Shown here: positions 4,635 through 40,924 of the stretch, piece by piece
How the letters are laid out: every line of letters starts with the position of its first letter
How positions within the stretch are numbered: position 1 is the first letter of the stretch
Virus record (IMG/VR): IMGVR_UViG_3300046694_000290
Span: 1-43,624 of that record
DNA length: 43,624 bases
From: a virus
Strand: one strand, 5' to 3'
Notes under the pieces: model-generated
What the model was told of the DNA's origin: nothing
The model's input: the letters and a program-made list of their open reading frames with translations, nothing else
Database searches by the model: none
Position numbers and translations under genes: made by a program

Positions 4635-4697
4635 TGGGGTTTAAGCCGTACGTTTCCGCAGGTCAGAGCGCAAATCCTAGTTGTCCTGGAAGCTAGT

Positions 4698-4710
4698 TTC
4701 CAAATGTTAG
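4698..4710 (+). promoter_or_regulatory. 17-bp element variant before integrase
   Basis: TTTCCAAATGTTAG lies directly before the first possible ATG of the integrase. This orientation, with TTCCAAAT first, is the one seen in the spacer of the second class of cassette promoters. Confidence 0.4.
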
Positions 4711-4780
4711 GATGCCTGGGAAGTTGCTGTTCAGTCCTGCCGTACGGCGGTCAACTGGACCGACGAAGGGCGTATTGGGA

Positions 4781-5827
4781 ATGGCCAGGTCTGCTACTCC
4801 AAAAGTCAGCTATGCGGGGAAGCTCTACGTAGAGCAACGGGAAGCCCAGACGGGGCACGGCCGGCCCCTGCACTACCTACGGAGCCTCTTCCGGCGCTTC
4901 GCGGTGCACGTCGAGGACTGCCACGTAAGCAGCCTCCGGGCTCAGCACATCGAAGCCTTCTTCTACGGCCCTGGGGGCCTTCACGAAACGTGCCAGGCAA
5001 CGACCCTGGCCAACTACCGGGCGACCATGCGTAGCTTCCTGCGGTTCTGTGAGCGTCGGGAATGGACGCTCCGCACCATGGAGGTTCTGACCGAGGGCCT
5101 GAAGGAGAAGAGCACTCAGACGAACCGGAACCGCTACCGGATGACGCGGGAAGAGGTGCTTCTACTCCTCGAAGCGGCGGAGCATCCGCGCGACCGTGCC
5201 CTAGTCGCCTTCCTGGCGAACACGGGCCTTCGCATCTCCGAGGCCGTACGCATGCGGGTGCGTGACGTGGCCTTCAACAAGGGGGAGCTTTACGTGTACC
5301 TCCCGAAGACGAAGGAGGAGGTGACCGTTCCCCTGTCGCTCGACCTCGAACGGGAGCTTCGGGACTGGCTTCGCGCCTACACGGAAGAGGTCGGCACCGT
5401 GAAGCGCTCTTACTACCTCTTCCCGGTGTTCCATAAGGCGTTCTTCATGCACGGTCACGCCCAGGTCCCGAACCGTGAGCGTCGACTGAACCCCGAAGGC
5501 TGGATCTCTCACCCCACGTACATCATCAAAGACATTGCGGTGAAGGCGGGCATCGAGCTTGACCCTGGCGACGCGTGGCACACGCTGAGGCGGTCGTTCG
5601 CGCGCATCCTCTATGAGGACGCGCGAGAGCACGGCCACGACAACGCCCTTCGGATCGTTCAGGCCGCACTGAATCACAAGGAAGTCAGCACGACGGAGCG
5701 ATACCTAGGATTGGACATCGAGCGTCAGCGTTACGCCGACATGATCAAGGGGAAGCCGTTCCTGACCGCGAACGGGGACGGCGGTAAGATCATCCCGCTT
5801 GACGAGAGGAGGGCGGGCCGTGGCTAA
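4781..5827 (+). CDS. int: Tyrosine site-specific recombinase (integrase)
   Basis: Integrates and excises the prophage at attP/attB. Counted from the ATG at 4712 (371 residues), the catalytic residues are Arg174 in TGLRISEA, His290-x-x-Arg293 in HTLRR, His322 in LNHK and the nucleophile Tyr331 in TERYLG, all present. An N-terminal core-binding (SAM-like) domain occupies roughly residues 33-125. The ATG at 4781 (348 residues) is preferred because AAGGGC lies upstream, while the ATG at 4712 has no ribosome site. The next gene is translationally coupled. The set is complete, so the enzyme is probably active. Confidence 0.93.
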   Translation: MARSATPKVSYAGKLYVEQREAQTGHGRPLHYLRSLFRRFAVHVEDCHVSSLRAQHIEAFFYGPGGLHETCQATTLANYRATMRSFLRFCERREWTLRTMEVLTEGLKEKSTQTNRNRYRMTREEVLLLLEAAEHPRDRALVAFLANTGLRISEAVRMRVRDVAFNKGELYVYLPKTKEEVTVPLSLDLERELRDWLRAYTEEVGTVKRSYYLFPVFHKAFFMHGHAQVPNRERRLNPEGWISHPTYIIKDIAVKAGIELDPGDAWHTLRRSFARILYEDAREHGHDNALRIVQAALNHKEVSTTERYLGLDIERQRYADMIKGKPFLTANGDGGKIIPLDERRAGRG

Positions 5828-33681: not shown

Positions 33682-33894
33682 TTACAGAATCCCGAACCTT
33701 CTCGCTACGGCCTCATTGTTTCTCTGGCCCCTGCCCCCGGTGTTCCGGGAGATCCACTCGGCGGGCTTCTTCGTTCCGTCCGGATTGAGGGCGGTCGGAT
33801 AGCAAAGCCATCCGTGATTCCGGCGCTCGACCTTGAATCCTGCGCCCTTGATTGCCTCGGCGAGACCTTCCGGAGTCCTGCGAACCTTTGCCAC
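33682..33894 (-). CDS. 71-residue basic cassette protein
   Basis: GTG at 33894 has AGGAAGG eight bases upstream. The product (AKVRRTPEGLAEAIKGAGFKVERRNHGW at the start) is basic, with a fold that could be a small alpha/beta nucleic-acid binder; no family is assigned. The longer open frame crosses the promoter and is rejected. Confidence 0.65.
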   Translation of the reverse strand: MAKVRRTPEGLAEAIKGAGFKVERRNHGWLCYPTALNPDGTKKPAEWISRNTGGRGQRNNEAVARRFGIL

Positions 33895-33935: not shown

Positions 33936-33964
33936 ACGTTACTAGTATTTGGAATCCCTGTCTA
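33936..33964 (-). promoter_or_regulatory. Cassette promoter, class B (gene 33682-33894)
   Basis: TAGACA and TAACGT are 17 bases apart. The spacer holds the 17-bp element in reverse (TTCCAAATACTAG) running into the -10. Leader motif follows. No GTTTAAAC here. Confidence 0.75.
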
Positions 33965-33965
33965 G

Positions 33966-34513
33966 TGGCTCCGGTGGGTTGGGTTGTTGTTGCTGTTGCC
34001 TTTCGTCTTTCCCCATGCCTCGGGTGCCTTGAGCGGGTGGAGTGGATTGGACCCCCCCTTGAAGCAAGCAATAGGCCCCCCACGTATGGAGGTTACTCAC
34101 TTCAAGAGGGGAGCCTGTCAGTCGTACTCGGTACGCCTGTCACGGTATGTCGCTTACAGGACCGGTTAAGGGAATTAGCCTCACCGCAGGGCCGGGAAGT
34201 GTGATCAGAGCTAGGGGCCGCACGCCCGTTCCCTCTGCGGGAACACCGGTCCGGGCCTGCCTTCACCCGGTCTGTCTGTCACTCGGTATGCCGTTCCCCG
34301 AAGGGCTTCTCTACCGTCCGGTGGCTGAATCCGGAGTCAGCTTTTGTTGAGGGAGAGCCGTTCTCTTACTCCCGACTGATCTGGACTCCCCAGGGCGTCA
34401 ACCTGGGGCCTCAGAAGCGGCTTCCTGGGGCCGCTCAACCCTTGGCATGTCGTTTCCCCCCGGTGCCATCCGTGGGGCCGTCCTACGCGGCCACGGCCAA
34501 GATCGACCGTGCC
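33966..34513 (-). ncRNA. Orphan transcription unit: non-coding RNA or long leader candidate
   Basis: A strong class B promoter at 34520-34549 reads into about 550 bases with no convincing protein. The only well-formed start is at 34448 (ATG after GGGGGGAAA), giving a 16-codon peptide that ends inside a CCCCAGG/CCTGGGG hairpin near 34381-34404. Further hairpins include GGGAG/CTCCC near 34350-34375. The unit has no own terminator I could find, so the RNA may continue into the next cassette. It may be a regulatory RNA, an attenuator with leader peptide, or a decayed cassette. Confidence 0.4.
34398..34448 (-). CDS. 16-codon leader-peptide candidate
   Basis: ATG at 34448 with a GGGGGGAAA ribosome site eight bases upstream, reading MPRVERPQEAASEAPG then TGA. 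The stop lies in the stem of a hairpin. It may be a translated leader peptide in the orphan transcript; chance is the main alternative. Confidence 0.3.
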   Translation of the reverse strand: MPRVERPQEAASEAPG

Positions 34514-34519
34514 CGAGGG

Positions 34520-34604
34520 ACGTTACTAACATTTGAACTATACGCGCAAGCTATACGCGTGTGATCAACGCCACGCGTTTACACACGTTCCACATGACAG
34601 CATC
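34520..34604 (-). promoter_or_regulatory. Orphan promoter region, class B, with extra motifs
   Basis: TTGCGC (34544-34549) and TAACGT (34520-34525) are 18 bases apart, with TTCAAATGTTAG in the spacer. Upstream are a direct repeat CTATACGCG (twice, 14 bases apart), GTTTACAC at 34577-34584 in the opposite orientation, and a diverged 17-bp element at 34588-34604. This is the most elaborate promoter of the array and has no gene directly after it. Confidence 0.6.
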
Positions 34605-34707
34605 CGTGCGCGAGCGTCCGCGCCCTGGGCGAGAAGGCCGGCCGAGGGTCGAGGGGCCGCTACGCGGGCCGTATAGGGCCGTTCAGGGTGCGCGCGGACA
34701 CGGAGAA

Positions 34708-35076: not shown

Positions 35077-35409
35077 CTACGCGGCGTTGGCCTTCTCGTA
35101 CGCCTCACGGATGCTCGCAGGTACGCGGCCCCGGTCGTTCACGTCATGGCCGTTGGCCTTCGCCCAAGACCGGATAGCGGCCGTGTCCTCGGCGGGCTTG
35201 CCGGAACCCATGCGGCGAACCGTCGCGCGGCCCCCGCCAACCCTCCGCCCCTTACCGATGTACGGGGCCAGGGCTTCCCGAAGCTTCGCGTTGTTCTCGT
35301 CGTTCAGGTCGATCTCGTACGTCTTCCCGTCGAGGCCGAAGAGAACCGTCTGACTCGCCTCGGAGCCGTCAAGGTCGTCTTCGAGAGTCGTGATTACCTT
35401 CTGAGCCAT
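35077..35409 (-). CDS. lsr2: Lsr2-like nucleoid-associated xenogeneic silencer
   Basis: A 110-residue Lsr2 protein. The N-terminal oligomerisation domain reads AQKVITTLEDDLDGSEASQTV and FGLDGKTYEIDLNDENNAKL; the C-terminal minor-groove DNA-binding domain reads AIRSWAKANGHDVNDRGRVP and includes the AT-hook-like RGR motif. Lsr2 proteins bind A/T-rich DNA and silence transcription. Phage copies may control host defence or phage genes. ATG 35409 has AGAAGGA upstream. The frame also continues in phase to GTG 35553 (next entry). Confidence 0.93.
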   Translation of the reverse strand: MAQKVITTLEDDLDGSEASQTVLFGLDGKTYEIDLNDENNAKLREALAPYIGKGRRVGGGRATVRRMGSGKPAEDTAAIRSWAKANGHDVNDRGRVPASIREAYEKANAA

Positions 35410-35553
35410 GGTGTGTTCCTTCTCCGGGAAAAGTTCGATTACGTTCGTGGACTTCTTACCAGCGTGGCAACTACAGCCACAAGCTAGGCCGCTTACCGTG
35501 CGGACGGGGCACGTTTCATGGTGCCCCGTCATGCACCACCCGAGACGCGTCAC
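35077..35553 (-). CDS. Longer Lsr2 form with N-terminal Cys/His domain (alternative start)
   Basis: The Lsr2 frame is open upstream to a GTG at 35553 that overlaps the stop of the DUF2637-fusion gene (GTGA), the coupling used all over this genome. The extra 48 residues include MTRLGWCMTGHHETCP and CGCSCHAGKK, a Cys/His cluster able to bind zinc. So the locus may make a 158-residue zinc-finger-Lsr2 and a 110-residue Lsr2 from one frame. The alternative is that the coupled start makes a separate small zinc protein that has lost its stop. Confidence 0.5.
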   Translation of the reverse strand: MTRLGWCMTGHHETCPVRTVSGLACGCSCHAGKKSTNVIELFPEKEHTMAQKVITTLEDDLDGSEASQTVLFGLDGKTYEIDLNDENNAKLREALAPYIGKGRRVGGGRATVRRMGSGKPAEDTAAIRSWAKANGHDVNDRGRVPASIREAYEKANAA

Positions 35554-36203
35554 GGGGTGACCAGCGTTCCGCCGTGCGCCCTGGCGTACGCCTTCAGGAC
35601 GTTGTCAGGAATCCGCCCGGTGTCCTTCACCGTGAAGCCGTTCTGACGCGCCCAGGACCGAATCACGGCGCTCGAATCCGTGGCCACGGTCACGGCCGGA
35701 ACCTTCGCCATCGAGGCCGCGAAGATGGGGGCCTGAACCGCCGGGGCCTCCCAGGCCGGCCACGGCTCATCCGACAGGGGCTCTTCGAGGTCCTGGCCGC
35801 CCTCGGCGACCAGCTCGACCAGCTCGGCACCGACAGGCTCACGGCGCTTCAGAAGGTGCGTGAACAGGTGGACGGCCAGGGGCACGGCCAGGGAGGGCAC
35901 TCCGCGGATTACCGGCCCCGGAACGGTGTCCGGAAGGCTGTTCGACCAAAGCGAGTACGCGAAGAACAGGGCGGCCAGAATCCACGGGTAGGCCGTGGCC
36001 TTCCACCCGAAGTCACGGAGCCGGTAGGCGACCCATACGGCCACCGTGACGAACCCTTCCACGATCAGCGGGTATATGGGGCTTAGGTCGCGGTCCCCGT
36101 CGCTCCCCAGGTAGACGTTCTGAAGAGCCTCATACGAGAGCGTGAAGGCCCCCGCCGCAATACCGGCGACCACGCTAGCGGCGGCCTTATCAGTCTTCTG
36201 CAC
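35550..36203 (-). CDS. DUF2637 membrane protein fused to an Lsr2-type DNA-binding domain
   Basis: A 217-residue protein. Residues 1 to about 118 contain four hydrophobic spans (ASVVAGIAAGAFTLSYEAL, LIVEGFVTVAVWVAYRL, WILAALFFAYSLW, AVPLAVHLFTHLL) like DUF2637/SpdB-type proteins of Streptomyces plasmids and phages. An acidic, alanine-rich linker follows, then residues about 178-212 (SAVIRSWARQNGFTVKDTGRIP) match the Lsr2 C-terminal domain, with TGR in place of RGR. It could tether DNA or Lsr2 filaments to the membrane. It is followed by the Lsr2 gene in a GTGA overlap. Confidence 0.8.
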   Translation of the reverse strand: MQKTDKAAASVVAGIAAGAFTLSYEALQNVYLGSDGDRDLSPIYPLIVEGFVTVAVWVAYRLRDFGWKATAYPWILAALFFAYSLWSNSLPDTVPGPVIRGVPSLAVPLAVHLFTHLLKRREPVGAELVELVAEGGQDLEEPLSDEPWPAWEAPAVQAPIFAASMAKVPAVTVATDSSAVIRSWARQNGFTVKDTGRIPDNVLKAYARAHGGTLVTP

Positions 36204-40264: not shown

Positions 40265-40306
40265 AGTATCAGGGGCCAGGGGTGGCGGTTTCAAATAGTA
40301 GTTTCA
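40265..40306 (-). promoter_or_regulatory. Promoter of the lipoprotein operon
   Basis: TTGAAA and GATACT are 18 bases apart, with GAAACTACTATTTGAAA (17-bp element) over the -35. It overlaps the end of the sigma-like gene. No GTTTAAAC in the spacer. Confidence 0.7.
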
Positions 40307-40924
40307 GTGATCGGAAGAAGTGGCGTACTGGGCGTACGCGTTCGACGTAGCCGCACGGCCACCGGGGCCGGAATGCGCCTTAGCTTCCTGCTGACGCTTG
40401 ACGACACTGTTGTTCAGCGTCCGAACGATCTTGTCGATAGCCCGAGAAAGCCGCATCGTTTCGGCCGAGGAAAGAGACTCGCCCTGCTCGTACCGCTTCG
40501 CGATCACCTGGGAGTCGAGGACGGGCAGAAGGCCGTAAGCGCGGTCAAGGTCCCAAAGGGCGACGACGACACCCCCGGCGGCGACGGAAACGGCGTCGTC
40601 CTTCGTCGGGGCCTTCTCCCAAAGCTCAGGCTGGAAAAACGCCTTCTCGAAGAGCTGTCGCACTTCCGAGGACGTGTAAACGTACTCCGCCGAATGGTAG
40701 ATGTACGTGTAGCGCTCTTTCCCCGCGTAGCTGACAGCAATCTTCCGGAAGTTGTTCCGAAGCTGTCCATCGGGGTACTCGGCCGCTTCGTACACGGCTT
40801 CCTTCTCGACAACGTGAAGAAGGATCTCCTGTCGAATGTCCTCGGCCTCGATACCGGGGTACTCCTCGGCCACTCGACGCGCGACACCCTCGGCAATCTT
40901 CGTGTACTTCGTCCAGTCAGTCAT
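40304..40924 (-). CDS. Sigma-factor-like DNA-binding protein
   Basis: A 206-residue protein. AEGVARRVAEEYPGIEAEDIRQEILLHVVE near the N-terminus resembles sigma region 2 (xxDIxQE), and SQVIAKRYEQGESLSSAETMRLSRAIDKIVRTLNN the HTH of region 4. It may direct RNA polymerase to phage promoters, or bind DNA in another way. ATG start. The dispersed promoter motifs in this genome are attractive targets. A GTTTACAC site lies inside the gene. Confidence 0.7.
   Translation of the reverse strand: MTDWTKYTKIAEGVARRVAEEYPGIEAEDIRQEILLHVVEKEAVYEAAEYPDGQLRNNFRKIAVSYAGKERYTYIYHSAEYVYTSSEVRQLFEKAFFQPELWEKAPTKDDAVSVAAGGVVVALWDLDRAYGLLPVLDSQVIAKRYEQGESLSSAETMRLSRAIDKIVRTLNNSVVKRQQEAKAHSGPGGRAATSNAYAQYATSSDH
40674..40681 (-). 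promoter_or_regulatory. GTTTACAC site inside the sigma-like gene
   Basis: GTTTACAC on the minus strand, aligned with transcription, in coding sequence. Confidence 0.4.

Follow-up and report, generated by a model that had tools for sequence, protein, structure and literature searches.

A conserved, structured non-coding RNA of Streptomyces phages and plasmids: a candidate RNA-based replication origin

Introduction

What does a phage transcribe from a promoter that has no gene behind it? The question is raised by a minus-strand locus in a Streptomyces phage, within the stretch of 43,624 nucleotides that was analysed as a whole (the window). A preliminary description, made from the letters alone, regarded the locus as a possible orphan RNA, whether regulatory RNA, attenuator, or a site controlling packaging or replication. 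The RNA itself has held up, as a conserved, covarying structured molecule; among the roles offered, replication is favoured, and attenuation and packaging are disfavoured. Homology and the exchange of replicons suggest that the locus is probably an RNA-based origin of replication.

Earlier descriptions of RNA-based origins concern one group of mycobacteriophages. In cluster A, most extrachromosomal phages have no RepA and depend on a region of ~600 bp upstream of parA, from which a non-coding RNA is expressed in the reverse direction and which by itself enables plasmid replication (Wetzel 2020, PMC7157519). Experimental tests of the origin cover RedRock, Alma, Gladiator and LadyBird (PMC7157519). 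Together with parABS it stands in place of an integrase in these phages, and its removal leaves lytic growth unaffected; the paper gives no covariation-supported structure for the RNAs (PMC7157519).

The locus and its upstream elements

The promoter-like element TTCCAAATNNTAGTAACGT occurs in six copies in the window at no more than 3 mismatches in a pattern search, against 0.01 by chance, and three of the copies are perfect. The copy at 34520 heads the RNA unit, with transcription expected to start just downstream, at about 34513. It had been called as good as any in the array; with its 2 mismatches it is a weaker copy than the three perfect ones. The extra upstream motifs that had been pointed out, the CTATACGCG repeats and GTTTACAC, are found as placed (Table 1). 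In relatives the repeat block reads TCTAG-TTGCGCG-(T)CTAG and is conserved in the alignment, as is the GTGTAAAC block. The direct repeats are possibly a regulator site.

Elements of the promoter type form an array on the minus strand (window 33936, 34520, 34991, 36764 and 38441), several copies being followed by a repeated CTTGTCAGCGAGAG leader. The phage encodes a sigma-K-like factor (40304-40924, minus strand) that might read this array. A protein in which DUF2637 and Lsr2 DNA-binding domains are fused is encoded at 35550-36203 (minus strand), adjoining an Lsr2 gene at 35077-35409. DUF2637 proteins are present on the plasmids that carry the RNA as well.

No coding gene is supported within 34010-34513, in agreement with the earlier observation that the 550 bases behind the promoter hold no plausible gene. 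The exception made there, a 16-codon peptide, exists as a reading frame but is not a conserved peptide, since a one-base deletion interrupts the frame in most of the aligned relatives and its ATG is absent from several plasmid relatives. Its stop had been placed in a hairpin, and sits in the loop of one that covaries (34388-34408). An unrecognised small protein gene is scarcely credible here: the 16-codon frame has a good ribosome site and there is a 52-codon GTG frame at 33942-34100, but one-base indels, substitutions that keep base pairing and the missing ATG all speak against it.

Table 1. Features of the RNA locus (window coordinates)
Feature	Position	Strand	Evidence or remark
Conserved structured non-coding RNA, candidate RNA-based replication origin	34010..34513	-	homologs and covariation
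GTGTAAACG motif, upstream of promoter (GTTTACAC at 34577-34584)	34576..34584	-	hardly varies among the 7 phages of the first alignment
Two CGCGTATAG direct repeats (CTATACGCG on + strand)	34538..34559	-	single repeats at 34538-34546 and 34551-34559
Phage promoter-type element GTTCAAATGTTAGTAACGT, start of RNA unit	34520..34538	-	2 mismatches to consensus; conserved in relatives
5' motif CGACATGCC	34444..34452	-	matches CGACACGCC at the corresponding position of mycobacteriophage origins
16-codon frame, rejected as a gene	34398..34448	-	frame broken in relatives
Hairpin P2	34416..34435	-	compensatory changes, e.g., AGAGG/CCUCU in L005
Hairpin P3, holds stop of 16-codon frame	34388..34408	-	both bases changed in two pairs, 96% paired
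Hairpin P4, conserved loop UAAGAGAACGGCU	34351..34373	-	three compensated pairs, 98% paired
Hairpin P5	34317..34335	-	CG/UA compensation, 100% paired
Hairpin P8, GCAGA loop	34228..34244	-	5 of 6 pairs compensated, 100% paired
3' core (model R1), part common to mycobacteriophage RNA origins	34128..34207	-	contains hairpin P9 (34164-34185)
Long terminal hairpin	34054..34111	-	seven compensated pairs in 19-bp stem
Run of seven G, 3' arm of terminal hairpin	34052..34058	-	conserved in alignment
Promoter element of next downstream unit, far boundary of RNA region	33936..33954	-	perfect match

Conservation and structure of the RNA

The RNA, about 500 nt in size and encoded behind the repeated phage promoter element, is conserved in 11 Streptomyces phages and prophages (this phage and ten further). 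Homologs were found by searches from a neighbouring protein and from conserved DNA, and their carriers include viral contigs and two integrated Streptomyces prophages. A more divergent form is found on seven Streptomyces plasmids and in further genomes. A G+C-rich pattern scan of genome contigs returned mainly chance hits; its two genuine members, L083 and L117, were identified by profile search. A model (R2) run over two sets of 394 genomes added two new ones, L215 and L217, and weaker R2 hits of 25-31 bits were judged on inspection to be chance. Rfam covariance models gave no match to the RNA at either gathering or permissive thresholds, and megablast and blastn gave none among known phage records.

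Covariation in relatives, one of the checks that the preliminary description had proposed, was run and supports a structured RNA. Ten helices with 62 pairs were defined, and in the 11 phage sequences 97.8% of cells are paired. Compensatory changes on both sides are seen in 22 pairs of these sequences, compared with 8.9 ± 1.9 in shuffles. Controls in which the register was slid gave 45-61% paired and 1-5 compensated pairs. In the hairpin of the 3' core, 100% of cells are paired across 20 phage and plasmid sequences. The folding energy alone is not unusual (z = -1.21), so that the case for structure rests on covariation. A predicted closing helix, CATGCC/GGCATG, was not counted, since on visual inspection some of the phages, and the plasmids, do not retain it.

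Relationship to mycobacteriophage RNA origins

Motifs in RedRock and Alma occur in the same order as in the Streptomyces RNA and on the transcribed strand. Model R1, a covariance model built from Streptomyces RNAs alone, was run over 224.5 kb from ten mycobacteriophages. Its nine best hits fall on the RNA strand in the origin regions of nine of the ten (RedRock, Alma, Gladiator, LadyBird, Phlei, EagleEye, Steamy, Refuge and Benvolio), the region in five of the nine being assigned by similarity to RedRock. They score 19.1-26.5 bits with modest single-model E-values (0.0009-0.047), and they are not independent because the mycobacteriophages are related to each other. The best R1 hit outside origin regions reaches 14.1 bits; at the origin of Bachome R1 has no hit. 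The reciprocal search, with a mycobacteriophage model on the Streptomyces loci, gave no significant top hit, and six of the 25 listed hits lie on the RNA.

Bridging sequences from environmental phages were collected by a pattern scan of IMG/VR. For example, L241 matches both the LadyBird origin (E 2e-10) and the Streptomyces plasmid-type sequence L182 (E 1.5e-7), the E-values being those of small local comparisons. L251 matches RedRock, and the Streptomyces phage group is matched by L244 and L236. Judged by eye, the bridging sequences have a long hairpin after the core and a G-run of three to six. The Streptomyces phages have a spacing of 241-258 nt from 5' motif to core, against 324-338 nt for the plasmid group and 312-353 nt for the mycobacteriophages.

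The locus has distant sequence and structure homology to validated origin RNAs, and it is a non-coding region with no conserved ORF, as the broken frame and the covariation indicate. A linked parABS that replaces the integrase, the third character of the cluster A origins, is not found; it characterises the host phages and not the RNA. Sequence comparison makes it most likely that the Streptomyces RNA is distantly homologous to the mycobacteriophage RNA origins, of which it would form a new, distant branch.

Plasmids and the exchange of RNA for protein

Pfam scans of two plasmids with the RNA detected no replication initiator family among 31 proteins of L187 and 29 of L185; MobF and a few short ORFs lay outside the scans, which a novel Rep family would also escape. 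The proteins that neighbour the RNA on L188 showed no relation to those on L185. Plasmid GC skew gives no clear origin signal.

Two sister plasmids, L254 and L255, have a backbone in common with L185, L187 and L212 but lack the RNA. At the equivalent locus, after a homologous small gene and leader, they carry a protein of ~500 amino acids (L254:6835-8340, minus strand; L255:31595-33190, plus strand; 91% identical to each other). The small gene and leader of L187 (19429-19962) align to L255 at 77%. None of the five RNA plasmids compared encodes this protein, which has no relatives in Pfam, NCBIfam or PDB. In PLSDB the protein has matches on seven plasmids and the RNA on seven others. Such an exchange is the pattern that would be expected of two interchangeable replication modules, the protein being a candidate for a new replication initiator.

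On six plasmids (L185:11987-12268, L187:19452-19652, L212:17988-18173 and others) the small gene immediately precedes the RNA, and on the sister plasmids it likewise precedes the ~500-amino acid protein. By eye its product is ribbon-helix-helix-like, and among the L185 proteins there is one weak RHH_1 match (E 0.0007). The gene is possibly a copy-number repressor. That gene and the hairpins with conserved loops would also fit an RNA of copy-number control or incompatibility, regulating another part of the replicon and not itself starting replication; this reading is quite improbable, as the mycobacteriophage relatives alone suffice for replication.

The plasmids bear on two further roles. The RNA is directed toward the gene at 33682-33894, as a 5' leader or attenuator of that gene would be, but a perfect promoter element (33936-33954) stands between the two, and the genes downstream vary among plasmids, where they may have the opposite orientation; we give this role very little credence. 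Even less is given to a packaging RNA or packaging site. The carrier phage does have terminase and portal genes, but the same RNA is carried by conjugative-type plasmids that have no annotated packaging genes. A role in replication is favoured because of the homology to mycobacteriophage RNA origins together with the interchange with a plasmid protein module.

Integration and the time of action

The phage integrates: prophages are found integrated at a site near window 4679-4690. The likely attP, at about 4679-4690, lies beside a tyrosine integrase gene (both within window 4679-5827), and it is there that the two ends of an integrated prophage come together. The integrase is present in the window and in two of four other near-full-length records, and no AAA_31 (ParA) match was obtained in the window or in those four. 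Four other viral records that bear the RNA match the integrase protein of this phage, and two of the four bridging records match the integrase family.

Because this phage integrates and gave no ParA match, its origin may act on the excised or lytic genome. The RNA would most likely be used on excised DNA, in lytic growth or before integration. Its use may be lytic or transient, given that lytic growth of the mycobacteriophages proceeds without the origin.

Proposed mechanism and significance

From these comparisons we infer transcription, origin activity, a priming step and the timing of use. The promoter at 34520 would start an RNA of ~500 nt that folds into ordered hairpins, the last of them long and bearing a G-run. 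Homology to the mycobacteriophage origins suggests that this RNA, not a protein, would let replication begin on a circular element. The origin is probably of the primer type. If the analogy with ColE1 RNA II holds, the folded transcript would remain hybridised to the template close to the 3' end, where it would prime a DNA polymerase of the host or the phage.

The Streptomyces RNA supplies a covariation-supported structure for the RNA-based origin family. It widens that family to Streptomyces phages, integrating ones among them, and to conjugative-type plasmids with no recognised initiator. A single family of protein-free RNA origins may extend across Actinobacteria, in integrating phages, extrachromosomal prophages and conjugative plasmids, and be exchanged at one plasmid locus with the unclassified ~500-amino acid protein, which would in that case be an initiator of a new type; the chances of this broader view are about even. 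The natural swap of RNA for protein offers a way to test how replication starts, and cloning vectors for Streptomyces are a possible yield.

Comparison with known systems

The GOLLD and ROOL RNAs are likewise large, ornate structured RNAs from phages and mobile elements. The RNA described here could be of that kind, a large regulatory or structural RNA with no role in initiating replication. Similar size, structure and occurrence in phages and plasmids would suit this reading, and no Rfam hit ties the RNA to another class. However, the Rfam models of GOLLD and ROOL themselves do not match it, it is homologous to RNAs that are required for replication, and it and the protein module are mutually exclusive at one plasmid locus. 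A GOLLD- or ROOL-like function is accordingly unlikely, if less so than the other alternatives, and an RNA-based origin is preferred.

ColE1 RNA II is a structured transcript of ~550 nt that has a G-run near its 3' end and needs no Rep protein. The phage RNA is also structured and would resemble it in the conserved G-run near the 3' end; this likeness is one of analogy, and a relation in sequence is not expected.

The Streptomyces RNA differs from the cluster A mycobacteriophage origins in occurring in integrase-encoding phages with no detected ParA and on conjugative-type plasmids, and the similarity in sequence is mostly limited to the 3' core. In both, however, a non-coding RNA region of similar length carries a 5' CGACAYGCC and a 3' core of CATCCCGG-hairpin-GAGTAAT-CCC, in the same order and on the transcribed strand.
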